Source of the DNA: Dillenia suffruticosa
Lineage: Eukaryota > Streptophyta > Magnoliopsida > Dilleniales > Dilleniaceae
Length of the DNA: 64,000 nt
Assembly: GCA_033439265.1 (NCBI GenBank)
Contig: JAVTVX010000027.1
Location: 12,043,001 to 12,107,000, forward strand
Reading direction: 5' to 3'
Each line of letters begins with the position of its first letter. The stretch's first letter is position 1. Both the position numbers and the translations under genes were made by a program. Positions 1,322 to 59,126 of the stretch are shown piece after piece. The notes beneath the pieces were generated by a model. The model ran no database searches, was not told the origin of the DNA, and was given only the letters and a program-made list of their open reading frames with translations.

Positions 1322-1780
1322 TGTTAAAAATAAGGGAGAAGATGAAGATAAGTCTCAAGGTATTCAACTTGAAAATATGATAATGTCATAAACATTGGGC
1401 CTTTTATTTTTTAAATGTTCAGAATTTGGCAACATATTTATGACCCAAAATACATTCAAAAACAAGCCCAATGAAGCCCAAAAGTATGGAGAAAAGTCTA
1501 AGAGGTAAACCCAAATAGCTAGGGGCAGTTTGGGCAATGTATATTCCAACAGTCCAAAAACTAGCTGTTGGAATTCCTTGGGGTTTGAGCCCCAACGGGA
1601 ATATTGACTTTGTTCTCTCTCTACTGGCTATTTTTCTCCCTTTGCCTATAAATAGAGCTATTGCTCTCCTTGTAAAATTAAAAGAGGAAGATAATCTCTC
1701 TTCCTTTGTATCATTCTACTACATCAATAAAAACCAGAAGTTTATTAGATTTCTCTCTCTTCTTAGTCAAAAATCCAACA
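1322..1780 (+). repeat. Aw 5' LTR
   Basis: 459 bp, TGTTAAAAATAAG at the start and AAATCCAACA at the end. TATAAATAG lies at 1647-1655 and AATAAA at 1726-1731. An inverted repeat TTCCAACAG / CTGTTGGAA lies in U3, upstream of the TATA box. Confidence 0.95.
1647..1655 (+). promoter_or_regulatory. TATA box of the Aw 5' LTR
   Basis: TATAAATAG, preceded by a CT-rich stretch and followed about 80 bases later by the AATAAA signal at 1726. The same arrangement recurs in every A LTR, placing the U3/R border about 30 bases downstream of the TATA box. No ATG occurs between here and the gag start at 1780. Confidence 0.7.
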
Positions 1781-4700
1781 TGGTATCAGAGCAAACATCG
1801 ACTCCGGGGTTGGGAAATTCTCTTCCTCAAATCTCTTCCTTTCAAATCCAACTTTTCTCCCAAATTATTCTAAGCTCAACCAATTACTTCCAATGGGCTA
1901 GTCATATCAGAAGATCTCTCAATGGAGCAAAACTTCTGTCTTTCATTACAAAAGATCCTATGGATCGGCTAGACCCACGATTTGATGAATGGAAGGAGCT
2001 GGATGATCAAGTGTTCCTATTGCTAACAAGCTCCATGGATCAAGCACACAAAAATATGGTAATGTGCTGTCCGAGTTCCAAATCCTTATGGGAGCAAATG
2101 TATGGGTTATATGGTCAGGAATCAAACTTGAGCAGAATATTTGAAATACAAAAAAGGATTGCGGCCATCCAAATGGAGGAGAAATCAATTACACAATTGT
2201 TCGGAGAACACGAGGACTTGTGGAATGAGCTTAACACATTGAGACCTCTCACAAGTGATATAAAAGTGCTGCAAAAGAGACAAGATGAAGACAAGGTGTT
2301 TTCATTGCTCTCATCACTCAATGAGTCATTTGTACAACTTCGACAGGAAATTCTTCGAATGAAAGAATTTCCATCATACCAAGAGACTCGATTTATGATT
2401 CAAAGAGCTGCAGCTTCTCAAAGGCTTGAAGAAAGCAATCAGTCCAAAAGTGAAGTTCATGGGTTCTCCACAAAGCAGAATGAGCAAGCTTCAAATAAGG
2501 CTCATCAGGGAATAAAAAAGGTGTGTTCTCATTGCAAAAAGTTGGGACATACCAAGGATGGTTGCTGGTTTCTTCATCCTAACCTTAAACCTGAGTTCAT
2601 CAAGAAAAAAGAGCAAGAGAGGAGGGAGCAAAATGCTCAACCAGCTGCAAACAAAGCAAATCTGACATCTCAAAAATTAGGAAAATCCTCCTCAGGTACT
2701 TGCTCTAACTCATCTGTTACTTCTTCAAAATGGTTGATAGATTCAGGTTGTGATCACCATATGGTCAAAGATAAGCAAAATTTTCAGAATCTTGAACCTC
2801 TCCTAGAACCTAAAATGGTTAAAGTTGCGAATGGACATAATTTCAAAATTAAGCAAATTGGGGATGTTGAAATATTTGGAAGAAAATCAAAGGCCTTATA
2901 TGTTCCTCAATTTACCTCTAATCTTATGTCCATTGGACAAGTCACTAAGGACTTAAATTGCAAAGCTATTTTTGACCCTCATTCTGTTGTTTTTCAGAAT
3001 TTGGAGACGAATCAAGTGATTGGTAGTGGTTCTATGCAAGATAACTTGTATTTTTGGAAACAAGATAGTTTTGTATTTTCCGCAATCCGAGAGGAAAGTT
3101 ACCTCCTTTGGCATGCTAGATTAGGTCATCCTTCTATGCAAGCTCTGAAATGCCTATTCCCATCAAAAAATTGTAGTGATAGACATTGTGAAGCATGCAT
3201 TTTTGGAAAGGAAACCCGAATGTGTTATCCTATTTCTGAAACTCAATATAAAAAGCCTTTTGATCTTGTTCACTCGGATGTATGGACTTCACCTATGATA
3301 TCTAGAAGGGGATTTAAGTATTTTATCTCATTTATAGATCATAAGTCTAGGTATACATGGGTGTATATGCTAAGATCAAAAGACCAAGTTTATGAAGCCT
3401 TCAAGTCCTTTTACAAGTATATTATAAAACAATATGAGGCCAACATTAAAATTCTTAGGACAGATAATGGTGGGGAATATATGAGCACCAATTTCAAAAA
3501 TTTCATTGAGGAGAATGGAATTATTCATCAAACTAGTTGTCCCTACACTCCCCAACAAAATGGAGTTGCCGAACGCAAAAATAGACATCTCCTAGAAATA
3601 GCTAGAACTATCATGTTCTTTGCTAATATGCCTAAGCGTTTTTGGAGTGATGCGGTTAGTACCGCAGCTCATTTAATAAATCGTCTTCCAACTAGAGTTC
3701 TCCATGGAAAATCTCCATTAGAGTTGCTTAGAAAAGACAAACCAAACCTCTCTCACCTTAGAGTTTTTGGGTGTATTTGTTATGTTCATATTCCTAGGCA
3801 GTTTAGAGATAAGTTAGATATCAAAGGAAGGAAATGTGTTTTTATTGGGTACGCTTCATTCCAAAAAGGATATATTTATTTTGAACCTGACTCTAACAAG
3901 GTATACACATCGAAAGATGTGATATTTGTAGAAAATGAATTCTTTTTTGCAGGAGAAAAAAATGAAGAAAATTCATCAAGCAATGACTTGCGAATCTTCT
4001 GCGATGTTCCCATAAATCCTCCTCTGGTTCCTCAAGAATCCAATGAAGAGAATTCACTTTCAGGGGGAGAAAACGAAGAGGGAGGAGTGGATGAGTCTGA
4101 AAATGAAGAGAACTCTTCCGAAGAAAGAGAAGAAGGCGAGGGATTACCTACCTTAGGAGAATCCGGAGACGAAACTAGACTGCCCTCTCCGCTGGCTCCT
4201 CCACTTCGACGTTCCACCAGATTGAGGCTTCCTCCCTCAGAGTGGATCAACAGAAGAGTTTATTACAATTCTAAGGTAACTCACTATCCTATTTCAAATT
4301 ACTATTGTGTATCTAATACTTCCTCAAGCCATCAAGGGTTCTTGAGTGGCATTGACTCATCACAGGAACCTAAGGATTTTGATGAGGCAAATACCAAACC
4401 CGAATGGAGACAAGCTATGCTTGAAGAACTAGATGCATTGAATAAAAATGGGACGTGGGAGATTACTACTCTCCCTAAGGGAAGAAAGGCTGTCGGGTGT
4501 AAATGGGTGTTCAAAATCAAGTATAAAAGTGATGGATCCATTGAACGCTACAAGGCAAGACTTGTAGCCAAAGGATTCACACAAACTTATGGAGAAGACT
4601 ACACTGAGACTTTTGCCCCTGTTACCAAAATGAAAACGATAAGGGTTTTGATGTCAATTGCAACCAATGGAGAATGGCCAATGTATCAAATGGACGTGAA

Positions 4701-5905
4701 GAATGCTTTCCTTCAAGGGGACTTAGACGAAGAAATCTACATGCAAATTCCCCAAGGGCTAGATGAGGATTCAAACATCAAGGTGTGTCGTCTTAAAAAA
4801 GCAATCTATGGGTTAAAACAATCTCCTCGTGCCTGGTATGCAAAATTAAGTTCAGCACTTCTTGGTAATAACTTTAAGAAATCCATTAGTGATTCCTCCA
4901 TGTTTACTAAAGTTAACAATGAAGAAATCACTATTGTTCTTATTTATGTAGATGATATAGTTATTACAGGAAGTGATATGAATGGTATTGATCAAGTTAG
5001 AAATTTCCTTAAATCTACTTTTGAGATTAAAGATTTGGGAAAACTAAAATATTTCTTAGGAATAGAGCTTGCCTATTCTCATAAGGGGCTAGTTCTATGC
5101 CAAAGGAAATATGTACTTGACCTTTTGCAGGAAACTGGAAAGGTAGGAGCTAAACCAGCAGCAACTCCTATATCCATAGCAGAACGAGCACAAGGTGATG
5201 AAGAAATGTTCCAGGATATTCCTAGATATCAAAGACTTGTGGGGAGGCTCATCTACCTCACCATTACAAGACCAGATATCACCTATGCCGTCAGCTTAAT
5301 CAGTCAACGGATGCATGCTCCAAGGATTCAAGATTGGAAGGCAGCAGAAAGAATTCTCAAGTATTTAAAAAGCTCACCAGGAAGGGGAATTCTTATGAAA
5401 AACAACCACAGCATGGAGATTTATGGCTACTGTGATGCAGATTGGGCTGGGGATGTCACGGACAGGAGATCCACCACCGGCTACTGCATGTTCGTGGGAG
5501 GAAATCTTGTAACATGGAAAAGCAAGAAACAATCTGTTGTATCCAGATCAAGCGCTGAGGCTGAATACAGAGCAATGGCAGCGGCTACAAGCGAAATAGT
5601 TTGGCTAAAGGCATTACTTGAGGAGATGGGATTTCCTACTATCGCTCCTATTCTTCTACATTGCGATAATCAAGCAGCTCTTCATATCGCTGCCAATCCA
5701 GTATTTCATGAAAGAACGAAGCACATTGAGGTTGATTGTCATTTTGTTCGAGAAAAATTAGAAAACAAGACAATTTCAACCTCATATGTTAGAAGTGAAG
5801 ACCAGCTAGCTGACATTTTCACTAAGGCAACAACTGAGAAACATCTTCAACACTCCTTAGCAAGTTAGGGTCCATAGACATCTATGCACCTAACTTGAGG
5901 GGGAG
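1780..5905 (+). CDS. Aw gag-pol polyprotein (coding body)
   Basis: One long frame encodes a Ty1/copia polyprotein. Order of parts: gag (residues about 1-240); CCHC zinc knuckle CSHCKKLGHTKDGC (about 248-262); aspartic protease LIDSGCDHH (about 318-328); pre-integrase HARLGH; integrase with HSDVW, RTDNGGEY and NGVAERKN giving the D,D,E triad (about 498-600); reverse transcriptase with YVDD (about 1056); RNase H with CDADWAGD (about 1218) and SSAEAEYRAM. The ATG at 1780 uses the last base of the LTR plus the first bases of the primer-binding site; it is the first ATG after the TATA box. The frame is also open upstream into the LTR, but that part precedes the TATA box and should not be transcribed. 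Nearly whole, at most one break. Confidence 0.9.
1781..1792 (+). other. Primer-binding site, initiator-Met tRNA type (Aw)
   Basis: TGGTATCAGAGC follows the LTR end CA directly. It is the classic plant complement to the initiator methionine tRNA 3' end. It overlaps the first codons of gag (MVSEQ). Confidence 0.9.
5892..5905 (+). other. Polypurine tract of Aw
   Basis: AACTTGAGGGGGAG immediately before the 3' LTR; plus-strand DNA priming site. The same tract precedes every A, B and C 3' LTR in the window. In the family reading frame it encodes Asn-Leu-Arg-Gly-Ser. Confidence 0.85.
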
Positions 5906-6364
5906 TGTTAAAAATAAGGGAGAAGATGAAGATAAGTCTCAAGGTATTCAACTTGAAAATATGATAATGTCATAAACATTGGGCCTTTTATTTTTTAAAT
6001 GTTCAGAATTTGACAACATATTTATGACCCAAAATACATTCAAAAACAAGCCCAATGAAGCCCAAAAGTATGGAGAAAAGTCTAAGAGGTAAACCCAAAT
6101 AGCTAGGGGCAGTTTGGGCAATGTATATTCCAACAGTCCAAAAACTAGCTGTTGGAATTCCTTGGGGTTTGAGCCCCAACGGGAATATTGACTTTGTTCT
6201 CTCTCTACTGGCTATTTTTCTCCCTTTGCCTATAAATAGAGCTATTGCTCTCCTTGTAAAATTAAAAGAGGAAGATAATCTCTCTTCTTTTGTATCATTC
6301 TACTACATCAATAAAAACCAGAAGTTTATTAGATTTCTCTCTCTTCTTAGTCAAAAATCCAACA
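5906..6364 (+). repeat. Aw 3' LTR
   Basis: 459 bp, identical to the 5' LTR except for about two positions. TATA box at 6231-6239. Followed by the target duplication CCTAA. Confidence 0.95.
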
Positions 6365-6473
6365 CCTAATTCAATGGGTATTTCAATGGGTCTGGCCCGA
6401 AGGGCCCAGCCCGAGCCAGCAAATGGGGCCCCAAATGGGCCCCCAGCAGGCTGGGAATCTTGCCGTTGGTGGT

Positions 6474-6518
6474 CCCAACGGCTAGTTCCCATTCTAGCCG
6501 TTGGAGGTCCAACGGCTA
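6474..6518 (+). promoter_or_regulatory. Cluster of three MSA-type (MYB3R) sites in the B1 5' LTR
   Basis: CCCAACGGCTA at 6474-6484, TAGCCGTTGGA at 6495-6505 (reverse strand) and TCCAACGGCTA at 6508-6518 each match YCYAACGGYYA, the M-phase-specific activator consensus of plant G2/M genes. The second and third form a perfect inverted repeat with 11-base arms and a 2-base spacer. The cluster lies 72-116 bp upstream of the TATA box at 6590. The match is seen directly; function is inference. Confidence 0.6.
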
Positions 6519-6725
6519 GTAGAGAAGGAGAGGGCTTTATGCCCTCTCCACTCTCTCTTTTCTCTCACTCTCCTCTCCTCTCCATCCTCTATAAATAGGG
6601 CAGCATGTTGCCCTCTCAAAGTATGAAAAAATGCCTTCAACCACTTGTATAATTTCCTTGAAATATCAACAAAATCTTTGAAGTCCTTTTTTATTACTCA
6701 TTGCTTGCTTCCCTAGAAATTCAAC

Positions 6726-9700
6726 ATGGTGTCAGAGCGGACTAATATCCCTTCTTCCTCCGGCCTTGGAGGTCCACCACCACAAATTAGCACTTCTATG
6801 TTCACCTCCATTCTTTTGGATTCATCAAATTACAATGCTTGGCAAGACACCATCAAAAGGTCTTTAAACTTCTTCAATCTCGAAAATCATATATTTGAAG
6901 ATCCACTTGATGTTGCTGAGCCTTCATTCAAAGCATGGAAGAAAAGAGATGATCAAGTGGTGGTTCTTCTACAAATGTCTCTTGACAAAACCCACAAAGC
7001 AATGGTCTCTTGCATTCCAAATGCTAAGGCTTTGTGGGATCAAATGCACTCTTTATATGGCCAAGAAACAAACACGGGCAGAATCTTTGAGTTAAAAAAG
7101 AAGATCTTCAAGGTTCAAAAAGGAGGTAAAACCCTACCCGAATACTTTGGGGAATATAGGGATCTATGGAATGAACTCAATCTTTTGAGGCCTCCTACTT
7201 CAAATCTTAAAATTCTTCTTCAAAGAAATGATGAAGACATAACCTTTGGTCTTCTTATGGGTCTTGGAGAAGAGTATGCTCCTATTCGTCAAGAAATTCT
7301 AAGAATGAAGATATTTCCTTCATTCCAAGAGGTGCAATTCATGGTGCAAAGAACTGAAACAAGTATGAGGCTTGAGGATTCAACTAAACTCAAATCCGAA
7401 GCTCAAGCATTTAAATCTGTCCAGGAGGAGCACCCGGCCAACAAAGCTCAATATTTTGGCAAAAGAGACGTATGCACTCATTGCAAGAAACCAGGCCATA
7501 AAAGGGAGAAATGTTGGTTTCTCCATCCTGAATTACGGCCTAAGAACAGCAAAAGGGAGGCGGCTCAAACGGCAAATGCTCAACATGTCTCCCAAGTTGC
7601 TGCTCTTGAAAATAAAATGGAAGAAATGCAAAAAGAGATGAGGAATCTTATTGGCCAGATTGCTTCACATTCTAGTAACCTTCTAAACTCATCTAATTTT
7701 GATTCATGGCTTATTGATTCTGGTTGTGACAATCATATGGTCAAAGATAGAAACAAAATTAAGAAACTTATTCCTCTCTCTGACCATAAGATTGTCAAAG
7801 TGGTTAATGGTGAAAAATTAAAGGTTGATCATTTAGGAGAAGTTGAATTACTTGGCATGAAAACTAAAGCTTTATATGTGCCTAAATTCAATTCTAACCT
7901 TCTGTCCATTGGAAAAATAACTAAAGAACAAAATTGTAAAGTCACTTTTGATCCTAATGAAGTTGTATTTCAGGACCTCAACACGAATCACTTGATTGGC
8001 AAGGGGTCTAGGAGGCACAACCTATACTACTTGGATCAAGGAAATCAAGCTTTTGCTGCACAAAATCAAATGCATTCATTATGGCATGCTCGTTTGGGTC
8101 ATCTTGGGAACTTAGCTTTGAAACGCCTATTTCCAAAACTAGAAGTAGAAGATAGGCATTGCAAAGCTTGTGTTCTAGGAAAGCAAACTAGGATGTACTA
8201 TCCTATTTCAAATACAATATATGAAAATGCTTTTGAACTTGTGCATTCTGATGTTTGGACTTCCCCCATAGTATCGCATAATGGATTTAAATACTTTGTT
8301 ACCTTCATTGATCATAAAACTAGATATACTTGGGTTTACCTATTGGTAACTAAATCTGAGGTTTTTGAAGCCCTTAAGAGTTATTATAGATATGGGACCA
8401 AACAATTCAATGCCAACATTAAAATCATTAGGTCTGATCATGGGGGAGAGTACATTAGTCATGCATTTGAAAACTTCCTAGAAGGAAAAGGGATTATTCA
8501 CCAAAAGTCATGTGTTTACACTCCACAACAAAATGGAGTTGCCGAAAGGAAAAATAGGCATTTACTAGAAACGCCTAGGGCTATGATGTTCCATTCTAAT
8601 ATGCCTAAAAGGTTTTGGAGTGAGGCAATAAAAACCGCTGCCCATCTCATTAATCTTATGCCCACTCAAGTTCTAGGAGAAAAATCTCCATTAGAGCTAC
8701 TCTTAGGAAGAAAATCCAATATCTCCCATCTTAGAGTCTTTGGATGCTTATGCTATGTCCATGTACCGGAAAATTTCAGAAACAAGTTAGAGGAAAGGGG
8801 GAGAAAATGTGTGTTCTTAGGATACTCAACATTTGAAAAAGGGTATAAATGTTATGATCCACTAACCAAAAAACTATACACATCCAAGGATGTGATATTT
8901 GTAAAAAAAGAATTCTATTTTACAGGAAAGGAAGATCTAGATCAAGCTGAAAAAGGAGAAGCTCAAGATCTATGGAACATTATTCTTCCAACCATTAATC
9001 ATCCAAATATTGAACAAGAACCAGCTCCGAATGTTCATGAAGATTCAGCTCAAGAAGATCCCTCGCCATCTCATTCTGATCAAGAAACCGTTCAAGAACA
9101 AGGGGGAGTTGATTCTGAGCAAGAGCTGGTCATTGAACAAGAAGAACAAATCATAGATGAACCACCTCCTCCTCTTCGTAGATCAACAAGACTTAGACTT
9201 CCTCCCTCCAATTGGATCAACAAAAGAGTTTTTTATAACTCCAAAGTAACTTCTTATCCCATTTCTAAATATTATTCAATTGCTAACACCTCTTGCAGCC
9301 ATCAAAGATTTATTCGAAACATAGATCTACATGAAGAACCAAGAACCTTTGAAGAAGCAAAAAACCATCCTCAATGGGTGCAAGCCATGAAGGATGAATT
9401 AGAAGCATTAGCCAAGAATGGAACATGGGAAATAACATCTCTACCAATAGGAAAGAAAGCCGTAGGGTGCAAATGGATCTACAAAATCAAGTACAAGAGT
9501 GATGGAAGTCTTGATAAATATAAAGCAAGATTAGTTGCCAAAGGTTTCACTCAAGCTTATGGGATAGACTACAAGGAGACATTTGCACCTGTAGCAAAAA
9601 TGAACACCATTCGAGTACTTCTATCTCTTGGTGTCAATCATTCTTTGCCCTTATTCCAAATGGATGTTGCAAATGCTTTTCTTCAAGGAGACTTAGAAGA

Positions 9701-10870: not shown

Positions 10871-11278
10871 TGTTGAAATGAAGCATAATTAGGCTTCATA
10901 GCTAGTTGATGCTAAGATCAAGTGTACAAACCTAATTCAATGGGTATTTCAATGGGTCTGGCCCGTGGGATTCGGACTGGGCCCTTCGGGCCCAGCCCTC
11001 GCCAGCAAATGGGGCCCCAAATGGGCCCCCAGCAGGCTGGGAATCTAGCCGTTGGAGGTCCCAACGGCTAGTAGAGAAGGAGAGGGCTTTATGCCCTCTC
11101 CACTCTCTCTTTTCTCTCACTCTCCTCTCCTCTCCATCCTCTATAAATAGGGCAGCATGTTGCCCTCTCAAAGTATGAAAAAATGCCTTCAACCACTTGT
11201 ATAATTTCCTTGAAATACCAACAAAATCTTTGAAGTCCTTTTTTATTACTCATTGCTTGCTTCCCTAGAAATTCAACA
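10871..11278 (+). repeat. B1 3' LTR
   Basis: 408 bp from TGTTGAAATGAAGC to TTCAACA, preceded by AACTTGAGGGGGAG. It is shorter than the 5' LTR in the hairpin module. One inverted MSA-type pair remains near 11046-11072. The TATA box TATAAATAG is near 11142. Confidence 0.9.
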
Positions 11279-12636: not shown

Positions 12637-13085
12637 TGTTGAAAAGAAGGATAACTTAACCCATCTTCATCACCAACCAAGTGCATCTATTTAGAAGTCC
12701 AAAAATCAGCATGCATTGTCCAGCAAGCATGGCCCATTTGGGCAGCCTAAACCAACCCAAAATACATTCAAAAATAGGCCCAAGGAAGCCCAAAAGTTTG
12801 GAGAAAAGTCTAGGAAGCAAACCCAAATAGCTAGGGGCAGTTTGGGCAGCATATATTTCAACAGTCAAAAAACTAGCTGTTGGAATTCCTTCGGGTTTGA
12901 GCTCCAACGGGAATATCACTTTCTACTGGCTATTTTTCCCTTTTCTCTATAAATAGAGCCTCATTGTATCTCCAAAAACTATGAGAAAAATGCTCTCAAA
13001 TCTGTCCATGTATGCTCTCATTCTTCTTCAATAAAATTCAGAAGTATTCTTCATTTCTTGTGCTCTATTTTTTGATATTTCAACA
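12637..13085 (+). repeat. C1 5' LTR
   Basis: 449 bp from TGTTGAAAAGAAGG to ATTTCAACA. Its middle (about 12760-12950) is clearly related to A LTRs, sharing the AGCCCAAAAG, CTAGGGGCAGTTTGGGCA and CTGTTGGAATTCC stretches. CTATAAATAGAG near 12947 is the TATA box. Confidence 0.87.
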
Positions 13086-20669: not shown

Positions 20670-21541
20670 TATTAGATTTATTTCATGCATTTGGAAACAT
20701 GGAAAATCACAAAATTAAATGGATCAGAATTCCAGGATAAATATCTTAATATATAGGTTTTCAAAAATCCGTAACTACAAACTCTCGAACAAATTGCTCG
20801 GCCGAGATGATGATCACATAGTATGAACCACCACCACAATATCACGACACCGCAACATAAAATGTGGTGACACAATGATGATGAGAAAATTTCCTACTTT
20901 AAATTTTTTTGATTCCTCAATAGTTTTCTCACTCTAGAGAATGTATGTCCGTCACTATCTCTCTAACCAATTCTCAATTACTCTTATTGTTCTCTCTCAA
21001 CAATGACCACCATAATATCACAACACCGCAACATAAAATGTGGTGACATAATGATGATGAGAAAATTTCCTACTTGAAATTTTTTTGATTCCTCAATAGT
21101 TTTCTCACTCTAGAGAATGTATGTCCGTCACTATCTCTCTAACCAATTCTCAATTACTCTTATTGTTCTCTCTCAACAATGACCACCATAATATCACAAC
21201 ACCGCAACATAAAATGTGGTGACACAATGATGATGAGAAAATTTCCTACGTGAAATTTTTTTGATTCCTCAATAGTTTTCTCACTCTAGAGAATGTATGT
21301 CCCTCACTATCTCTCTAACCAATTCTCAATTACTCTTATTGTTCTCTCTCAACAATGTACATAGTGATATGTTTTAATTCAAAACTCAAATTGAAAATAG
21401 TTAACTCATGTAAAAAGTATACTGAGAGAAAGAGAAATCTATGAGGAAATGGGGATAATGTGACCCATCATCTCATAATTTAAAACAATTTGAATCTTTT
21501 ACTTGTGGTAAAAGGCTCATCATGTGCATATTTTACCAACA
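20670..21541 (-). repeat. D2 3' LTR
   Basis: About 872 bp. The right edge at 21541 is supported by an adjacent purine tract (minus strand AAGTGAGAGA, 21542-21551). The left edge is set by alignment to D1's LTR and is good to a few bases. It is longer than the D1 LTR because of internal tandem copies. Confidence 0.65.
20829..21357. repeat. Three tandem copies of a 176-bp unit inside the D2 LTR
   Basis: Copies begin at about 20829, 21005 and 21181; the block from ACCACCATAATATCAC to CTCTCAACAATG repeats with a period of 176 bp and only a few differences. D1 has one copy, so the expansion arose in D2 or its parent. Confidence 0.88.
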
Positions 21542-24291: not shown

Positions 24292-24629
24292 TGTTGAAAT
24301 AAAGCACAATTAGGGCATGTGGCTGTCCCAATCCAGTAAACTTTGTGCTCTTAGAACAAGACCCAAATGTAAAATAAAAAGGGAGGCAATGCAATGTAAA
24401 ATTGAGGGCCAAAGGCCCCCAACGGATAGAGAGGGCAATGCCCTCTCTCCCCCTCTTATTTTCTCCTCTCTCAACTCTCTTTCTCTTCTTCTATAAATAG
24501 GGCAGCTAGTTGCTTTTAAAAGGTATGAAAAAAATGCCTCCAACCTCTTGTATGCTCTCTTTGAAACATCAATAAAATACTTGAAGTTCTTATTCATTTC
24601 TCATTGCTTGCTTCTTTGGAATTTCATCA
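24292..24629 (+). repeat. B2 5' LTR
   Basis: 338 bp, TGTTGAAATAAAGC to ATTTCATCA. TATA box TATAAATAG near 24492. It lacks most of the GC-rich hairpin module present in its 3' partner. Confidence 0.88.
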
Positions 24630-28147: not shown

Positions 28148-28625
28148 TGTTGAAAGATCAAAGAAAGAACTCAAGAGATCTTGAAATATAACTCTGAATT
28201 TTATTGAAATAGAAAGCAAATAACATTCATAGATTTGAACTTTTGTTCATACCATTGCTTGAATACATAGAAGCCTATTTATAGAAGAAGATGAGGGAGA
28301 GAATTAGAGAGCAAAAAGAGAGAACAAGAGAGGGGTTAAGACCCCTCTCTACTAGCCGTTGGAGGCTGTCTCCAACGGCTAGAATTACTAGCCGTTGGAC
28401 AGCTTCCAATGGCTAGGTTTGCCTAGCCGTTGGGGCCCAATTGGGCCCCCTTTGCTGGGCCAAAACGGGCCCTTTTGCTGGCCCGGGCTGGGCCCTTCGG
28501 GCCCAGCCCGAATTCTGCGGGCCAGCCCTAATTAATTCTCCATCCTTGAGAAGAACTTGTTGAACTCTTGGGAAGGCCCTTTCTTAGAAATGTGATGATA
28601 GGTTGATTAATTCCTCTTTTCAACA
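28148..28625 (-). repeat. C2 3' LTR
   Basis: 478 bp. On the plus strand it begins TGTTGAAAGATC and ends CTCTTTTCAACA. The hairpin/MSA region is at about 28375-28457, TATA box (minus) near 28275-28283. One difference from the 5' LTR. Confidence 0.95.
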
Positions 28626-31600
28626 CTCCCCCTCAAGTTGGGTGCGTAGATGTTTATAGTACCCAACTTGCCCATCATTTCTTGTAGGTGAGCTGCTGTT
28701 CCTCCTTTTGTGAAGATATCTGCTAGCTGATCTTCTCCTTTGATATGAGGAGTCACAATGAGTTTTTCTTCTACCTTTTGACGAATAAAATGACAATCAA
28801 CTTCTATGTGCTTGGTGCGTTCATGGAAGACCGGATTAGTGGCAATGTGAATTGCTGATTGATTGTCACAATGGAGGTTGATTGGAGTGGAGACTGTGAA
28901 TCCTAGTTCTTCTACTAAAGCCTTCAACCAAACTATCTCGCTTGCACTCGCTGCCATGGCCCTATACTCGGCCTCTGCACTTGATCTAGACACAACCCGC
29001 TGTTTTTTGCTCTTCCAAGCTACCAAGTTGCCTCCTACAAACATGCAATACCCAGTGGTAGACTTTCTATCGGTGGAGTCACCTGCCCAATCAGCATCAC
29101 AATACCCTTCAATGTTTGAACTTCCATTGTTCTTCATCCAAATGCCTAGCCCCGGGGATCCTTTGATATAATGAAGGATCCTTTCAGCTGCTCTCCAATG
29201 GCCTTTTGTTGGAGAGTGCATGAATTGACTTACATAGCTAACGGCATATGCTATGTCTGGCCTTGTGATGGTGAGGTAGATAAGTCTCCCAACCAACCTT
29301 TGATATCTTTCAATGTCTTCTAGAGGATCATTATCATCGGCTAAAGGACCGGAAGAGGAAACTGGACTGCAAACTGGTCTTGCTCCAAGCTTTCCTGTTT
29401 CCTGTAAAAGGTCAAGAGCATATTTTCTTTGGGAGAGAATTAGCCCATTGGGACAATAGGCTAACTCAATTCCTAGAAAATACTTTAGTTTTCCTAGATC
29501 TTTAATTTCAAATCTGGACTTTAAAAAATTTCTAACTAGGTTTATTTGATGCAAATCACTACCTGTGATGATAATGTCATCTACATAAACTAGTGCTATT
29601 GTGATATAATCATTAGTTTTTCTAATAAAGAGAGATGAATCACTATTGCATTTATGAAATCCATGACTAAGGAAAGTATGACTTAACTTTGCATACCAAG
29701 CTCTTGGAGACTGTTTGAGACCATAAATTGCCTTATGAAGTTTGCATGCATTTCCTCCTTGAGATCGAAGACCCATTGGTATTTGCATGTAGACTTCTTC
29801 TTCTAGATCTCCTTGGAGAAAAGCATTTGCTACATCCATTTGAAATAGGCTCCAACCGTGATTCACCGCAAGGGATAAAAGGACTCTAATAGTATTCATT
29901 TTTGCAACTGGAGCATAGGTCTCCTTATAATCAATCCCATATGCTTGAGTATACCCTTTGGCTACTAGTCTTGCTTTGAATCGCTCAATTGATCCATCGC
30001 TTTTGTGCTTGATTTTGTATACCCATTTACATCCTACGGCTTTCTTCCCTTTTGGTAGTGAAGTGATTTCCCATGTCCCATTCTTTGATAGAGCTTTTAG
30101 TTCCTCCTCCATTGCTTTTCTCCATCTTGGATCCTTTGATGCCTCCTCAAATGACGTTGGTTCCACTTCTTTATCTAGATTACTCAAGAAAGCTTGGTGG
30201 TCCAAGGAAACATGTGAGGTGGTATAATAATCATAAATAGGATGGGAGGTTACCTTAGAGTTATAGAATACCCTTCGATTGACCCATTCGGATGGAGGCA
30301 GTCTAAGCCTTGTTGATCTTCTTAGTTGAGGTGGTGGTTCATCCGGTTCCTCCTCGATTTCAAGAGATTCCTCCTCGTTTGTATTCTCCTCATTTGTATC
30401 ACTTTCTCCCCCTGAAACAATTGGTTGTTCAGCCTCTAAAGCTTCTGAATTATCATCTTGAGAGTTATGGCTTGTTTCAGAGGTGGAGTTTCCTTCGGTT
30501 TGTTCAGCTTCTTGAGGAGGCGATATGAGGAAGTCCCAAGTGCTAGGAGGAATTTCAGTCTTTGGAGCTTCCTTTATATCTTCATTTCCTGCGAAATAGA
30601 ACTCACTTTCTAAAAATATCACATCTTTTGATGTGTATGTTCGGTTAGTGGTAGGATCATAGCACCTATAGCCTTTTTCAAAGGCTGCATATCCAAGAAA
30701 TATACACTTTTTCCCTCTATGTTCTAGTTTATTCCTTAGGTGCGTAGGAATGTGAATGTAACATGTGCAACCAAATATCCTAAGGTGGGAAATATTTGGT
30801 TTCCTTCCTAGGAGAACCTCAAGGGGAGATTGCCCTTTTAAAACTTCGGTGGGCATAAGATTGATTACATGTACCGCGGTTTTAACCGCATCACACCAAA
30901 ATTTCTTAGGCATGTTTGCATAGAACATCATAGCTCTAGATATTTCAAGTATGTGTCTATTCTTCCTTTCCGCTACCCCATTTTGTTGGGGTGTGTAAAC
31001 ACATGACATTTGGTGTATAATGCTATTGTCCTTAAGGTAATTTTCGAAATTAAGACTTGTAAACTCACCACCATGATCTGACCTTAGGACTTTTATATTG
31101 GCATTATATAGTTTGGTTACATACTTCACATAGCTCTTGAGTGCTTCAAGAGCTTGGTCTTTAGTATTTAGAAGGTACACCCATGTGTGCCTTGTTTTGT
31201 GATCAATGAAAGTAATGAAGTATTTGTAACCTAAGTGGGACATGATGGGTGAAGTCCAAACATCGGAATGAACTAAATCAAAAGGATTTTCATATATTGT
31301 TTCTGAACTAGGATACATTGTTCGGGTTTCCTTTGCCAAAATACAAGCTTTACAATGTCTATTCTCAAAATTTAAAGTTGGAAATAGACGTTTTAAAGCT
31401 CGATCACTAGGATGTCCTAAGCGTCTATGCCAAAGAGATTGATCCTCCTTAACATGAGCTACATGTGCATTTTGTTCTTGATCCAAGTAATAAAGTCCTC
31501 CTCTTCTAGAACCCTTGCCAATCAATTGATTCGACTTGAGGTCCTGAAAAGAGACATTATTGGGGTCAAAAACAACTCTACACTTTTGATCCTTGGTGAT

Positions 31601-32848
31601 CTTGCTAATGGACAGTAGGTTTGAGGTAAGTTTGGGGACATATAAAGCCTTGGTTGGTTTTCCAAAAATGTCAACTTCCCCAACTTGATTTACTCTCAAA
31701 TCTTGTCCATTTGCAACTCGAATAGTCATATGGTTTGGAAGGTTTTCAAATCTCTTTATTTTTGCTCTATCCTTAACCATATGACATTCGGTTCCCGAAT
31801 CAATGAGAAAATTTTCAGAATTTAAATATGAGAAAGGTTCTTGATTTTTACCGGATGAAGGAGCTATTTGTTGAAGCTTTTGTGCAACCTCATTTAGTTG
31901 AGTTTGGAGTGCAGCAAAGTCAGCCAAAGATGGTGCTTGAACCTTTACGAATTGGGCAGCAGCTTGCTGTCCTGAACCAAATCCGTTTGGAGCTCCTTGC
32001 TGGTCCCTTTGCCTAAATACTTTGGGCTTTAGTTGGGGATGCAAGAACCAGCATTTATCCTTTGAATGGCCTCTTTTCTTACAATGAGAACATATCTCAT
32101 TTCTCCTTTGAGTTTGATTCACTTTGGCAGCAACTACTTCATTTGTAGAGGCAATGAATGCTTGAGCTTCAAATTTTTGCTTAGAGCTTTCTTCCAATCT
32201 AATGCTCACTTCAGCCCTTTGAATCATATTTTGGACTTCCCCAAATGATGGAAAGTCCTTCATTCGAAGAATTTCTTGCCTTAGATGGGAATATGAATCA
32301 TCTAGACCCATGAGAAGTCCAAATATTTTATCTTCTTCTCTTCTTTTTCGAATGACCTTGAGATCTATGGAATCTGGCCGTAAAGTAATCAGCTCATTCC
32401 AAGCATCTGAATACTCCCCAAAGTATTGAGGAAGAGATTTACCTTCCTTTTTGATGGAAGCAATTTGTCTCTTAAGCTCAAAGATTCTCCCAAGGTTGGA
32501 TTCCAAGCCATAGAGAGAGAACATTTCATCCCACAAAGTTTTTGCATTTGGGGCGCATGACACCATTGCTTTGTGAGTTTCATCTAGAGAGTTGAGGAGA
32601 AGAATAAAAACATGATCATCCCTTTTCTTCCATTCTCGAAAGGATGGATCTGTTTCTTCAAGTGGATCATCAAGAACATGACTCTCTAAGTTGTGAAGGT
32701 TGAGTGCCCTCTTCATTACATTTGCCCATTGATAGTAATTCCCCCCTTTCAATTGGATAGAGGATATACTTTGTATTTGGGAAAAGTTTATGGAAGGAGG
32801 AGGGTCACCCAACCTTGAAGAGGATGGGATCGTTTGCTCTGATACCAT
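28607..32848 (-). CDS. C2 gag-pol polyprotein, 1413 residues
   Basis: A single open frame for a full Ty1/copia polyprotein. Gag occupies residues 1 to about 250. CCHC knuckle CSHCKKRGHSKDKC is at about 254-268. Protease LIDSG is near 347, followed by the pre-integrase HRRLGH segment. Integrase triad: HSDVW (about 526), RSDHGGEF (about 589), NGVAERKN (about 625). Acidic linker, then LRRSTRLRLPPSEW. RT has YVDD (about 1086); RNase H has CDADWAGD (about 1248) and SSAEAEYRAM. The ATG joins the last LTR base to the primer-binding site. The frame continues through the polypurine tract (Asn-Leu-Arg-Gly-Ser) and stops a few codons inside the 3' LTR. About 1,400 residues is normal for copia. Gag and pol are in one frame, so any excess of Gag must come by another route. 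Confidence 0.93.
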   Translation of the reverse strand: MVSEQTIPSSSRLGDPPPSINFSQIQSISSIQLKGGNYYQWANVMKRALNLHNLESHVLDDPLEETDPSFREWKKRDDHVFILLLNSLDETHKAMVSCAPNAKTLWDEMFSLYGLESNLGRIFELKRQIASIKKEGKSLPQYFGEYSDAWNELITLRPDSIDLKVIRKRREEDKIFGLLMGLDDSYSHLRQEILRMKDFPSFGEVQNMIQRAEVSIRLEESSKQKFEAQAFIASTNEVVAAKVNQTQRRNEICSHCKKRGHSKDKCWFLHPQLKPKVFRQRDQQGAPNGFGSGQQAAAQFVKVQAPSLADFAALQTQLNEVAQKLQQIAPSSGKNQEPFSYLNSENFLIDSGTECHMVKDRAKIKRFENLPNHMTIRVANGQDLRVNQVGEVDIFGKPTKALYVPKLTSNLLSISKITKDQKCRVVFDPNNVSFQDLKSNQLIGKGSRRGGLYYLDQEQNAHVAHVKEDQSLWHRRLGHPSDRALKRLFPTLNFENRHCKACILAKETRTMYPSSETIYENPFDLVHSDVWTSPIMSHLGYKYFITFIDHKTRHTWVYLLNTKDQALEALKSYVKYVTKLYNANIKVLRSDHGGEFTSLNFENYLKDNSIIHQMSCVYTPQQNGVAERKNRHILEISRAMMFYANMPKKFWCDAVKTAVHVINLMPTEVLKGQSPLEVLLGRKPNISHLRIFGCTCYIHIPTHLRNKLEHRGKKCIFLGYAAFEKGYRCYDPTTNRTYTSKDVIFLESEFYFAGNEDIKEAPKTEIPPSTWDFLISPPQEAEQTEGNSTSETSHNSQDDNSEALEAEQPIVSGGESDTNEENTNEEESLEIEEEPDEPPPQLRRSTRLRLPPSEWVNRRVFYNSKVTSHPIYDYYTTSHVSLDHQAFLSNLDKEVEPTSFEEASKDPRWRKAMEEELKALSKNGTWEITSLPKGKKAVGCKWVYKIKHKSDGSIERFKARLVAKGYTQAYGIDYKETYAPVAKMNTIRVLLSLAVNHGWSLFQMDVANAFLQGDLEEEVYMQIPMGLRSQGGNACKLHKAIYGLKQSPRAWYAKLSHTFLSHGFHKCNSDSSLFIRKTNDYITIALVYVDDIIITGSDLHQINLVRNFLKSRFEIKDLGKLKYFLGIELAYCPNGLILSQRKYALDLLQETGKLGARPVCSPVSSSGPLADDNDPLEDIERYQRLVGRLIYLTITRPDIAYAVSYVSQFMHSPTKGHWRAAERILHYIKGSPGLGIWMKNNGSSNIEGYCDADWAGDSTDRKSTTGYCMFVGGNLVAWKSKKQRVVSRSSAEAEYRAMAASASEIVWLKALVEELGFTVSTPINLHCDNQSAIHIATNPVFHERTKHIEVDCHFIRQKVEEKLIVTPHIKGEDQLADIFTKGGTAAHLQEMMGKLGTINIYAPNLRGSVEKRN

Positions 32849-32974
32849 GTTGAAAGATCAAAGAAAGAACTCAAGAGATCTTGAAATATAACTCTGAATT
32901 TTATTGAAATAGAAAGCAAATAACATTCATAGATTTGAACTTTTGTTCATACCATTGCTTGAATACATAGAAGC

Positions 32975-32983
32975 CTATTTATA
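32975..32983 (-). promoter_or_regulatory. TATA box of the C2 5' LTR
   Basis: TATAAATAG on the minus strand, about 130 bases from the LTR's inner end, so transcription should start near 32945. The first ATG of gag at 32848 then lies roughly 100 bases downstream. Confidence 0.65.
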
Positions 32984-33052
32984 GAAGAAGATGAGGGAGA
33001 GAATTAGAGAGCAAAAAGAGAGAACAAGAGAGGGGTTAAGACCCCTCTCTAC

Positions 33053-33134
33053 TAGCCGTTGGAGGCTGTCTCCAACGGCTAGAATTACTAGCCGTTGGAC
33101 AGCTTCCAACGGCTAGGTTTGCCTAGCCGTTGGG
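33053..33134 (-). promoter_or_regulatory. Five MSA-type (MYB3R) sites in the C2 5' LTR
   Basis: Exact matches to YCYAACGGYYA on one strand or the other at 33053-33063, 33071-33081, 33089-33099, 33105-33115 and 33124-33134. Sites 1-2 and 3-4 are inverted pairs able to form hairpins. They lie about 70-160 bp upstream of the TATA box. The consensus is that of plant G2/M genes bound by three-repeat MYB factors; activity here is inference. Confidence 0.6.
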
Positions 33135-33230
33135 GCCCAATTGGGCCCCCTTTGCTGGGCCAAAACGGGCCCTTTTGCTGGCCCGGGCTGGGCCCTTCGG
33201 GCCCAGCCCGAATTCTGCGGGCCAGCCCTA
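33135..33230 (-). promoter_or_regulatory. GGGCCC palindromes and site II-like words in the C2 5' LTR
   Basis: A GC-rich stretch with repeated GGGCCC, TGGGCC and GGCCCA, including a near-perfect inverted repeat of CTGGGCCC and GGGCCCAG around TTC. TGGGCY is the site II motif found upstream of plant genes active in dividing cells (TCP targets). The same module occurs in B1, B2, B4 and B5 LTRs. Confidence 0.45.
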
Positions 33231-33330
33231 ATTAATTCTCCATCCTTGAGAAGAACTTGTTGAACTCTTGGGAAGGCCCTTTCTTAGAAATGTGATGATA
33301 GGTTGATTAATTCCTCTTTTCAACATTGGG

Positions 33331-39005: not shown

Positions 39006-39428
39006 TGTTGAAATAAAGCACAATTAGGGCATATGGTTGTCCCAATCCAGTAAACTTTGTGCTCTTAGAACAAGACCCAAATGTAAAGTAAAAAGGGAGG
39101 CAATGTAATGGGCCCTAAATGGATCTAGCCCACGGGTTTCGGGCTGGGCCCAGCCCGGGCCAGCAAAATTGAGGGCCAAAGGCCCCCAACGGCTAGTAAA
39201 AGAACTAGCCGTTGGGTCCAACGGATAGAGAGGGCAATGCCCTCTCTCCCCATCTTATTTTCTCCTCTCTCAACTCTCTTTCTCTTCTTCTATAAATAGG
39301 GCAGCTAGTTGCTTTTAAAAGGTATGAAAAAAATGCCTTCAACCTCTTGTATACTCTCTTTGAAACATCAATAAAGTACTTGAAGTTCTTATTCATTTCT
39401 CATTGCTTGCTTCTTTGGAATTTCATCA
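39006..39428 (+). repeat. B2 3' LTR
   Basis: 423 bp with the GC-rich module. Exact MSA-consensus matches lie at 39185-39195 and 39206-39216 (an inverted pair). TATAAATAG is near 39291. Confidence 0.88.
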
Positions 39429-41633: not shown

Positions 41634-41859
41634 TTACTAGCCGTTGGGTCCAACGGATAGAGAGGGCAATGCCCTCTCTCCCCCTCTCATTTTCTCCTCT
41701 CTCAACTCTCTTTCTCTTCTTCTATAAATAGGGCAGCTAGTTGCTTTTAAAAGGTATGAAAAAATGCCTTCAACCTCTTGTATGCTCTCTTTGAAACATC
41801 AATAAAGTACTTGAAGTTCTTATTCATTTCTCATTGCTTGCTTCTTTAGAATTTCATCA
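41634..41859 (+). repeat. B3: partial B-type LTR
   Basis: Right-hand 226 bp of a B2-like LTR: TAGCCGTTGGG, CT-rich stretch, TATAAATAG near 41724, ending ATTTCATCA. It joins D2 gag on the left and A4 integrase on the right, with no internal B sequence. It may mark a recombination junction or a truncated solo LTR. Confidence 0.8.
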
Positions 41860-42059: not shown

Positions 42060-42826
42060 TGATGTGATCATCAAGACTGCAAGAAATTTACAAGATTCAA
42101 CTCAAGTTTCAGTTGGGCCAGTAACAAAAGTTTGAGTTAAAAGGTTCAAAAAAATACTGAATAACTTAATTCAGAGGGTTTTACAATAAGAAATTGAAAC
42201 CCAAATAAATGAAGAACCAAAAGGGGCTTCACTTATGCTCATGCAAGCCCGGTTGGAAGAATAAAAGGCCCAAAACTATCCAAGACCAAGGGAGGACGAA
42301 AATGAAGAAAATAGCAGCAAAACTTGGTCAAAATAGTTTGATTTATTTAGTTTCCTAATTCTTATTTTTTTATAACTTTTTGTTTCCTAATTCTTTATTG
42401 TTTAGAGAGTTACTAAATTTTTAGTTGCCAATTATATTTTTACCTTTAGGCTATAAATAGGTCATTATACATTGTGTAAAACAACACTTTTGAGAGAATT
42501 AATAAAATTGTGAGGATTCTTCACACAAGTCTTGTTCTTTTGAGAATTTTGAACTTATTCAAGATATGAGTCTTGTTTAGTTCTTTGACTTATCAATTTA
42601 GGTTTTGAACCATCTAAATTGTGGCATCATTCATTCCATCTTTATACCAAGGTTCTTGATCTAGCGAGAAACGGGTCTAAGGTCATATACCTTAGGTTCT
42701 TCCTCCTTTAGGGCAAGGGTTGAGGTTTTAAAATCCACCGGTTTAAATAATTCGTTGTGACGATTTTTGGGCTAAATTAACTTATTCGTGGGTTTTAGGG
42801 TTTTTATACCCAACGGGTTCACATCA
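42060..42826 (+). repeat. G1 5' LTR
   Basis: 767 bp; TATA box CTATAAATAGG near 42460, AATAAA near 42500. Ends CACATCA. Confidence 0.9.
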
Positions 42827-43308: not shown

Positions 43309-44075
43309 TGATGTGATCATCAAGACTGCAAGAAATTTACAAGATTCAACTCAAGTTTCAGTTGGGCCAGTAACAAAAGTTCGAGTTAAAAGGTTCAAAA
43401 AAATACTGAATAACTTAATTCAGAGGGTTTTACAATAAGAAATTGAAACCCAAATAAATGAAGAACCAAAAGGGGCTTCACTTAATGTCATGCAAGCCCA
43501 GTTGGAAGAATAAAATGCCCAAAACTATCCAAAACCAAGGGAGGACGAAAATGAAGAAAATAGCAGCAAGACTTGGTCAAAATAGTTTGATTTATTTAGT
43601 TTCCTAATTCTTATTTTTTTGTAACTTTTTGTTTCCTAATTCTTTATTGTTTAGAGAGTTACTAAATTTTTAGTTGCCAATTATATTTTTACCTTTAGGC
43701 TATAAATAGGTCATTATACATTGTGTAAAACAACACTTTTGAGAGAATTAATAAACTTGTGAGGATTCTTCACACAAGTCTTGTTCTTTTGAGAACTTTG
43801 AACTTATTCAAGATATGAGTCTTGTTTAGTTCTTTGACTTATCAATTTAGGTTTCGAACCATTTAGATTGTGGCGTCATTCATTCCATCTTTATACCAAG
43901 ATTCTTGATCTAGTGAGAAACGGGTCTAAGGTCATATACCTTAGGTTCTTCCTCCTTTAGGGCAAGGGTTGAGATTTTAAATTCCACAGGTTTAAATAAT
44001 TCGTTGGGACGATTTTTGGGCTAAATTAACTTGTTCGTGGGTTCTAGGGTTTTTATACCCAACGGGTTCACATCA
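43309..44075 (+). repeat. G1 3' LTR
   Basis: 767 bp, about 22 differences from the 5' LTR. The gypsy-like C-terminal frame crosses from the polypurine tract into the first about 130 bases of this LTR. Confidence 0.9.
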
Positions 44076-46640: not shown

Positions 46641-47044
46641 TGATGAAATTTAAATATAGCAAGCTAAGAATGAATAAAGAAACTTCAAGAATTTAATTGA
46701 GAATTCAAAGAGAGTTTATATGCAATGAAGGCATGTTTTTCATACCTTCCAAAGAAACATATAAGCCCTATTTATAGAGAACAAGAAGAGGGGCAAGGGG
46801 ATACGAAAAGAGAGAGAGGAGAGGGCATTGTGCCCTCTCCAATTATGGCCGTTGGGGCAGTCCCCAACGGCTAGTTTTACTAGCCGTTGGGGACAGCCCC
46901 AACGGCTGTTTTTGCTAGCCGTTGGGGAACCTGATGAAACCTTAAAGGGATTACAATGAGAATGAAAAACCTACACAAATTAAAACTATACATTTAGACT
47001 TCATTCCCTTAGGACATAAACCCTAATTGTCCTTTATTTCAACA
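46641..47044 (-). repeat. B4 3' LTR
   Basis: 404 bp. Exact MSA-consensus matches at 46863-46873, 46881-46891 and 46916-46926. TATA box (minus) near 46772-46780. Confidence 0.9.
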
Positions 47045-50007: not shown

Positions 50008-50422
50008 TGATGAAGTTTAAATATAGCAAGCTAAGAATGAATAAAGAAACTTCAAGAATTTAATTGAGAATTCAAAGAGAGTTTACATGCAATGAAGGCA
50101 TGTTTTTCATACCTTCCAAAGAAACATATAAGCCCTATTTATAGAGAACAAGAAGAGGGGCAAGGGGATAAGAAAAGAGAGAGAGGAGAGGGCATTGTGC
50201 CCTCTCCAATTATGGCCGTTGGGGAACCTGATGGACCCCCATTTGCTGGCCCAGGCTGGGCCCGAGGGCCCAGCCCGAACAATCCGGGCAAGGCCCATTT
50301 AGGGCCCAACTTAGAAACCTTAAAGGGATTACAATGAGAATGAAAAACCTACACAAATTAAAACTATACATTTAGACTTCATTCCCTTAGGACATAAACC
50401 CTAATTGTCCTTTATTTCAACA
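50008..50422 (-). repeat. B4 5' LTR
   Basis: 415 bp, on the plus strand TGATGAAGTTTAAATATAGC to TTTATTTCAACA. TATA box (minus) near 50139-50147. It contains the CTGGGCCC/GGGCCCAG palindrome region. Confidence 0.9.
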
Positions 50423-57252: not shown

Positions 57253-57610
57253 TGTTTTTCATACCTTCCAAAGAAATATATAAGCCCTATTTATAGAGAA
57301 CAAGAAGAGGGGCAAGGAGATAAGAAAAGAGAGTGAGGAGAGGGCATTGTGCCCTCTCCAATTTTGGCCATTGGGGACAGCCCCAACGGCTATTTTTGCT
57401 AGCCGTTGGGGGACCTGTTGGTCCCCCATTTGCTGGCCTGGGCTGGGCCCGAAGGGCCCAGCTTGAACAATCCGGGCAATGCCCATTTAGCGCCCAACTT
57501 AGAAACTTTAAAGGGATTACAATGAGAATGAAAAATCTACTCAAATTAAAGCTATACATTTAGACTTCATTCCCTTAGGACATAAACCCTAATTGTCCTT
57601 TATTTCAACA

Positions 57611-58665: not shown

Positions 58666-59126
58666 TGTTGAAATAAAAGAGAACTAAGTGTGGTTAGCAT
58701 AGGCCCCATTTCAAGCCAAGTTTAAGCCCATCCATGAGATGTATTTGGCCCGTTCCTTATGGGTTTTTTAGTCCTTAAAAAAGACATTGTTAAGCCCCTA
58801 AAAGAAGCCCAAAATCGGCCCTGAAAAAGGCAAAACGGCTAGTTCTTTTGAACTAGCCGTTGCACTGTATAACTGCCATAAAAATGGCTGTTATACAGTG
58901 ATTTTGGGGACAGAAATCTGTCCCCAATGTCCCCCAACGGCTCTTTGAGTCTTTGGGGTCTTTTTCCCTCTGTTTCTCAAGTAATAATCTCTATAAATAG
59001 GAGCTTGTATGGGATGTTCTATCTATGAAAAAAAAAACCAATGCTCTCATTGTGCATTCTTTCTTCAAATAAAGTTATTTAAGTTTTCATTTAATCCTAA
59101 TTGCTTGATAGCTTGAAATCTTAACA
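58666..59126 (+). repeat. B6 5' LTR
   Basis: 461 bp. TATAAATAG near 58992. Hairpins at 58834-58861 (12-base perfect arms around TTTT, containing AACGGCTAG) and 58863-58900 (17-base arms with one mismatch around AAAA). Confidence 0.88.

Follow-up and report, generated by a model that had tools for sequence, protein, structure and literature searches.

Arrays of MSA-like MYB sites in Ty1/copia LTR promoters of Dillenia suffruticosa suggest elements timed to cell division

Findings

In a 64-kb stretch of Dillenia suffruticosa DNA (contig JAVTVX010000027.1; the whole stretch is hereafter the window), the U3 promoters of related Ty1/copia retrotransposons appear to carry conserved MYB binding sites that share the core CCAACGG, and these site arrays suggest copia elements that are timed to cell division. 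Four families, B, C, D and E, have inverted copies matching the M-phase-specific activator (MSA) element, with a forward copy 40-80 bp before the TATA box as the apparent anchor. The MSA element is the established cis-element of plant G2/M genes such as the B-type cyclins and is bound by three-repeat MYB (MYB3R) factors; its full consensus is taken here as YCYAACGGYYA, the passages of the papers cited below giving just the core and the bait TCCAACGGT.

The timing and place of heritable plant transposon insertions are called largely unresolved in a passage of PMC12477314. For one group of elements, a promoter made of the mitotic MYB element would supply an answer that is direct and open to testing. 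Such a promoter would also let transposons bring cell-cycle sites close to host genes, a route described for E2F.

Clusters of exact MSA sites upstream of the TATA box

A sequence-only reading of the B 5′ LTR had reported three exact matches to YCYAACGGYYA, and a pattern scan recovered all of them, at 6474-6484 (+), 6495-6505 (-) and 6508-6518 (+). The latter two form, as had been noticed, an inverted pair with a 2-base spacer, and the sites lie at the proposed distance of 72-116 bp upstream of the TATA box TATAAATAG (start 6590). The same reading held that such clustering is unlikely by chance, and indeed at least three sites were found in 0 of 2000 dinucleotide-preserving shuffles of this U3 (6370 to the TATA box). 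The comparison with shuffled sequence that it had suggested, run within the 64-kb window, gave 24 exact matches against 0.12 expected, the largest count in 100 shuffles of the window being 2. All 24 matches fall within U3, upstream of the TATA box, of Ty1/copia LTRs of the related families B, C, D and E, with their cores 77-148 bp upstream of TATAAATAG, in both orientations and at a maximum of five per LTR. The LTRs concerned, together with those of families A, F and G (5′ and 3′ LTRs being written B5, B3 and so on), include the following features:

6474..6484, plus strand: MSA site in the B 5′ LTR; exact match.
6495..6505, minus strand: MSA site in the B 5′ LTR, inverted partner of 6508..6518; exact match.
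6508..6518, plus strand: MSA site in the B 5′ LTR nearest to the TATA box; exact match, core at -79 from the TATA box.
6463..6467, minus strand: fourth AACGG core of the B 5′ LTR; 2 mismatches against the consensus.
6370..6726, plus strand: larger part of the B 5′ LTR; the remainder, 1257-1321, lies on the far side of an inserted A element, and a primer-site-like sequence is at 6727.
6590..6598, plus strand: TATA box TATAAATAG of the B 5′ LTR.
10871..11278, plus strand: B 3′ LTR, with MSA sites 11046-11056 (-) and 11060-11070 (+); target-site duplication (TSD) of the B element AAAAC.
32848..33325, minus strand: C 5′ LTR, with five exact MSA sites inside 33053-33134.
28148..28625, minus strand: C 3′ LTR, with four exact MSA sites; its single difference from the C 5′ LTR is a CpG transition in the site at -129.
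39006..39428, plus strand: D LTR (D3), with MSA sites 39185-39195 (+) and 39206-39216 (-) and a one-mismatch site at -71.
41636..41859, plus strand: truncated D LTR, with an exact site at 41638-41648 and one one-mismatch site.
24292..24629, plus strand: D LTR (D5), lacking 53 and 32 bp of D3; no exact site, one one-mismatch site remaining.
46641..47044, minus strand: E 3′ LTR, with four exact sites (46846-46926).
50008..50422, minus strand: E 5′ LTR, with one exact site (50213-50223); TSD CTTGT in common with the E 3′ LTR.
57253..57610, minus strand: truncated E-type LTR (E2), with two exact sites (57382-57410); the core nearest to its TATA box is AATGG (site CCAATGG).
58666..59126, plus strand: G LTR, with four AACGG cores and no exact MSA site; its U3 folding is the strongest of those tested (z -13.05).
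1322..1780, plus strand: A-family LTR (one of nine), with one forward CCCAACGGG at -53 and an inverted pair CAACAG/CTGTTG.
12637..13085, plus strand: F LTR, with forward TCCAACGGG at -42 and an inverted pair CAACAG/CTGTTG.

We examined 21 LTRs (nine of A, three each of D and E, two each of B and C, and one each of F and G). Exact sites number 3 in B5, 2 in B3, 5 in C5, 4 in C3, 2 in D3, 1 in the truncated D LTR, 0 in D5, 1 in E5, 4 in E3 and 2 in E2, so that the full consensus is present in 9 of the 10 B-E LTRs and absent from D5 and from all 11 LTRs of A, F and G. An exact MSA site in every family is thus ruled out, with A, F and G having none while keeping the core. At least one AACGG is present in 21/21 LTRs, and in 20 of them it is a forward CCAACGG that stands nearest to the TATA box. 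The earlier interpretation as MSA elements stands in part: the MYB-type sites go beyond chance, are conserved and are positioned like those of known MSA promoters; having covered a single LTR, it had overlooked both the spread over several families and the hairpin arms considered below.

Counted from the TATA box, and not from a mapped start site, the cores of C5 and E3 share a common register of -148/-147 (+), -129 (-), -113/-112 (+), -95/-94 (-) and -77 (+). Those of B5 stand at -127 (-, two mismatches), -113 (+), -92 (-) and -79 (+), and those of D3 at -103 (+), -82 (-) and -71 (+, one mismatch). Most cores in the set fall between -42 and -158, with outlying cores in C (-185) and G (-242). 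Both orientations occur in B, C, D3, E3 and G, and a single core in A, F, D5 and E5; A7, which has no exact TATA string, also has a single AACGG core. The cores of A and F read CCCAACGGGAA or TCCAACGGGAA, two mismatches from the MSA consensus. This layout in B-E appears to fit the arrangement of host MSA promoters: passages of PMC10905365 place three forward sites and one reverse site at -34 to -101 in Arabidopsis SCL28, and describe site number and orientation as variable among MYB3R-regulated genes.

The elements that carry the sites

Ty1/copia elements lie nested in the window, recognizable by their TG..CA LTRs, 5-bp TSDs (from A, B, C and E) and an initiator-Met-like primer site, which is TGGTGTCAGAGC in B (6727-6738) and TGGTATCAGAGC in the other elements found. 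The B element consists of a 5′ LTR (1257-1321 and 6370-6726) and a 3′ LTR (10871-11278) with the TSD AAAAC; its 5′ LTR is split by a complete A element (1322-6364; TSD CCTAA), whose LTRs have 2 differences in 459 and which has an open 1449-codon frame from stop to stop. Nine A-family LTRs were counted in the window. The C element (28148-33325; TSD TTGGG) is young, its 1416-codon frame being open from stop to stop and its LTRs differing at 1 of 478 bases, and the E element occupies 46641-50422 (TSD CTTGT). A Pfam search with pieces of B and C recovered Retrotran_gag_2, gag_pre-integrs, rve and then RVT_2, which is the copia domain order, and the reverse transcriptase pieces of C, A and E are respectively 79%, 73% and 88% identical to that of B. 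No relatives of the B reverse transcriptase piece were confirmed among the pattern-matching stretches from viral_contigs (3) or genome_contigs (20). The inverted MSA pair was found in 2 viral_contigs sequences, in what by eye (401 bases each) is seemingly unrelated coding DNA.

Conservation across families and retention of CpG

Comparison of the U3 regions of seven family representatives revealed CCAACGG as the only 7-mer common to all of them, and none was common in any of 300 shuffles. It is found in forward orientation at most 90 bp from the TATA box in 7/7 representatives, a placement with a shuffle frequency of 0-0.4% per family. The U3 regions of B-E can clearly be aligned among themselves, and so can those of A and F; since B-E share ancestry, their sites are not independent. 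The four B-E representatives hold 14 exact MSA sites, whereas about 0.01 would be expected over all seven. Between the groups A/F, B-E and G, the scores of 14 local alignments were little above those of shuffles: 4 exceeded all 100 shuffles and the rest were reached by 1-16 of 100; the best block contained the MYB core in eight, a CT-rich stretch in two, AGCCCA in two and the LTR start in two. The CpG-containing 7-mers common to one A, one B-E and the G representative are CCAACGG and CCCAACG, and such sharing was equalled in 0 or 1 of 3000 shuffles for each of four trios (0-7 of 3000 for CpG-containing 6-mers in A/B-E/G trios). The corresponding test with all 7-mers was discarded as support, being not beyond chance (A1, C5 and G share 5; shuffles mean 2.3, maximum 9). 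An alignment of nine U3 regions, made independently of the AACNG/CNGTT pair pattern used below, has few invariant columns besides the TATA box, most of them being a left arm A.C.G and a right arm T.GC.GTT.

CpG is far below expectation in these regions, with 1 against 9.9-10.9 in the U3 of eight A LTRs, 1 against 13.5 in A7 when its whole LTR is counted, and 10 against 23 in C5; it is also low internally (57 against 153 in A, 39 against 148 in B and 54 against 165 in C). The AACGG cores hold 24 of the 36 U3 CpGs remaining in the seven representatives, and the only CpG counted in each of the nine A LTRs is that of the core, although counts inside one family are not independent. Shuffles that keep the number of CpGs averaged 1.5 AACGG cores and never exceeded 7 in 5000 trials, as compared with the 24 observed. 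Taken family by family, the observed number of cores was reached in none of 5000 shuffles for B5, C5 and E3, 2 for G and 6 for D3, while one AACGG is not rare for A1 or F taken alone (272 and 438).

Turnover of site number

Site number changes within single insertions. The B5 array includes 34 bp that are absent from B3, and B5 lacks 20 bp elsewhere, with 7 differences in 323 aligned positions. E5 has one core and E3 five, although here as in B matching TSDs mark the LTR pair of one insertion; E5 and E3 differ in U3 blocks, a GGGCCC block being missing from the 3′ LTR, and the breakpoints are uncertain because 9 gaps break the alignment. Deletion between repeated arms likely lies behind the change in site number.

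Such rapid copy-number change within single insertions could also be expected if the palindromes were a mutational or inherited curiosity, originating once by template switching, repeated by slippage and now functionless. We consider this most improbable, as CpG-containing cores should then decay fast, yet the remaining U3 CpGs concentrate there, and the young C copy retains five exact sites along with its open frame and LTRs one base apart. That sites do decay after insertion is seen in C3, where the CpG transition lies in the core at -129.

Protein-binding sites or hairpin arms

Many MSA sites are arms of strong hairpins, and a structural role is therefore a real rival. The fold z-scores of U3 (-170 to -1) are -2.9 in A1, -0.5 in F, -8.4 in B5, -6.9 in B3, -10.5 in C5, -5.3 in D3, -2.2 in D5, -9.2 in E3, -4.8 in E5, -7.25 in E2 and -13.05 in G, as compared with a mean of -0.53 (sd 1.28, minimum -3.49) in 29 coding windows. 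Folding thus goes beyond shuffles in all tested families except F, being moderate in A1 and D5, and several near-perfect hairpins stand in a row in the G LTR (U3 of 58666-59126). The inverted copies might accordingly be kept for structure with the MSA match as a by-product: U3 forms part of the 3′ end of the element transcript, and hairpins there could contribute to the stability, 3′ end formation, packaging or reverse transcription of this RNA.

In 8 of 11 convergent pairs the core base that varies is paired as G-C, in two as A-T, and in one it is T-T, while both T-A and C-G occur at position -3, as a structural role would have it; the invariance of the other AACNG/CNGTT letters is no result here, because the search pattern itself demanded them. 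Further inverted repeats of the GAGAGGGC type are seen by eye beside the array, and some stems extend beyond the site (C, E and G), which keeps structure in play as a rival. Against it, pairing holds in 7-11 of the 11 pairs at the remaining offsets between -4 and +8 but falls at -8 to -5 to 3-6 of 11, near the 4 of 11 expected for random letters. The well-paired part thus approximates the 11-base MSA footprint (-3 to +7) and reads as two inverted binding sites and not as a free stem. Moreover, identical letters recur beyond mere pairing (CCAACGG in 7/7 families), the forward copy nearest to the TATA box is kept in 20/21 LTRs even where no inverted AACGG partner exists (D5 and E5), and the central pair of G is mismatched at the variable base. 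In F, TCCAACGGG is retained though the U3 folds no better than shuffles, which we count in favor of protein binding. We regard the structural explanation as unlikely, and think it probable that the U3 arrays are conserved protein-binding arrays.

Which MYB proteins might bind the array

Besides MYB3R, R2R3-type MYBs also use a core of this kind, CNGTTR. Were they the binders, stress, hormone or reproductive expression would be expected, as is reported for Tto1 and suggested for Rider, driven by MYB and not by the cell cycle. The motif recurring over all families is indeed the general MYB core, AACNG/CNGTT, in the form CAACAG/CTGTTG in A and F and with AACTG as an additional form in G. The Rider LTR carries CTGTTG and CTGTTA, for which passages of PMC6762207 point to R2R3-MYBs, with NtMYB2 acting on Tto1. 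R2R3 binding is nonetheless unlikely in our estimate, as B-E match the full MSA footprint with their 14 exact sites, and site II is enriched while W-box, ABRE, DRE, HSE and as-1 are not.

MYB3R acting through MSA is the best candidate for the array, and by the site matches it seems marginally favored that MYB3R proteins are its binders, with G2/M timing. Two observations go against it: no exact MSA site is present in A, F or G, and the base following AACGG is C in 17 of the 18 sites with at most one mismatch (seven representatives), against T in the MYB3R1 motif, as seen when the motif in the relevant part of PMC8725346 is turned round. Passages on host genes attest to the importance of the core: promoter activity of SCL28 becomes undetectable on changing AACGG (PMC8964727), a KNOLLE reporter is less active after the same change (PMC12227204), and in yeast SlMYB3R3 binds a bait of three TCCAACGGT copies (PMC9730800), activator and repressor MYB3Rs being said there to use the same site. 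Binding of a host MYB to the array would most likely lead to transcription from the 5′ LTR. If MYB3R activators drive the elements as they do G2/M genes through MSA, with repressor members otherwise silencing the same genes, expression would be biased to dividing tissue.

Site II (TGGGCY) is linked to proliferation genes and to TCP factors. Out of 18 motifs compared, it was above all 500 shuffles together with MSA, AACGG, its extension AGCCGTT and the MYB core; the other 13, with W-box, ABRE, DRE, HSE and as-1 among them, were not. Its 19 occurrences against 4.7 expected (0/500 shuffles) are weakened as evidence because B-E share the block by descent and E3, D5 and the truncated D LTR have none; in addition, the count in B5 taken by itself is unremarkable (326 of 2000 shuffles), and proper TCP sites are either missing or present just once (0 and 1). 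More tentatively, one might picture a mitotic enhancer common to the copia lineage, in which site II, the palindromic MSA array and the TATA box would yield G2/M transcription in meristems, MYB3R repression would act in resting cells, and inter-arm deletion would tune site number; this wider scheme we hold to be possible, with the balance somewhat against it.

Relation to known systems

According to the parts of the cited papers that bear on them, MSA promoters such as those of SCL28, KNOLLE and the B-type cyclins have multiple AACGG cores in mixed orientation close upstream of the start (PMC10905365, PMC8964727, PMC12227204), as is the case, counted from the TATA box, in several of the LTRs described here. 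Unlike the LTRs, those are promoters of host genes, for which binding and expression are demonstrated, and the hairpin arrangement of the LTRs has no mention in the passages on MSA promoters of MYB3R targets. Tto1 and Rider are likewise copia elements with MYB core sites in their LTRs, but theirs are R2R3-MYB sites with CTGTTG/CTGTTA cores tied to stress and ABA response, and not MSA arrays (passages of PMC6762207). The heat-response elements of ONSEN and the W-boxes of EVADE are comparable in that host factor sites in copia LTRs time expression, in their case to heat or immunity and not to cell division (as outlined in PMC12786077). Motifs of cell-cycle factors in transposons are represented by E2F sites in Brassica and by a survey of LTR motifs in 75 plant species, which names E2F and MYB24, MYB3R being absent from its main text by a text search for MYB, which matched in 2 places, each of them MYB24 (PMC11656987). 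A MYB3R1 motif is enriched in another group of reverse-transcribing elements, the tomato EPRV copies; unlike the LTR promoter array, these are described as intronic pararetrovirus remnants near virus-induced up-regulated genes (passages of PMC8725346). Against general meristem activity, retrotransposon transcripts in the pea shoot apex are stated not to be high, unlike in maize (a passage of PMC2478663).

Host factor sites in LTRs are well known, while an MSA array across several copia families was not found reported: no account of MSA arrays in LTR retrotransposons emerged from the literature searched, in which subscription papers were mostly beyond reach, and papers containing the 10-mer, on either strand, had unrelated titles among the matches listed.

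Other observations in the window

A different copia-like LTR is present as a pair, 767 bp each and 97% alike, at 42060-42826 and 43309-44075; AACGG is absent from the 392-bp U3 of the first (42060-42826), and CCCAACGGG occurs near its 3′ end. Amid the copia elements, a gypsy-like integrase fragment with an H2C2 zinc-binding domain lies at 50740-51393. At 20830-21357 a 176-bp unit is repeated three times in tandem, the copies being 98% alike.
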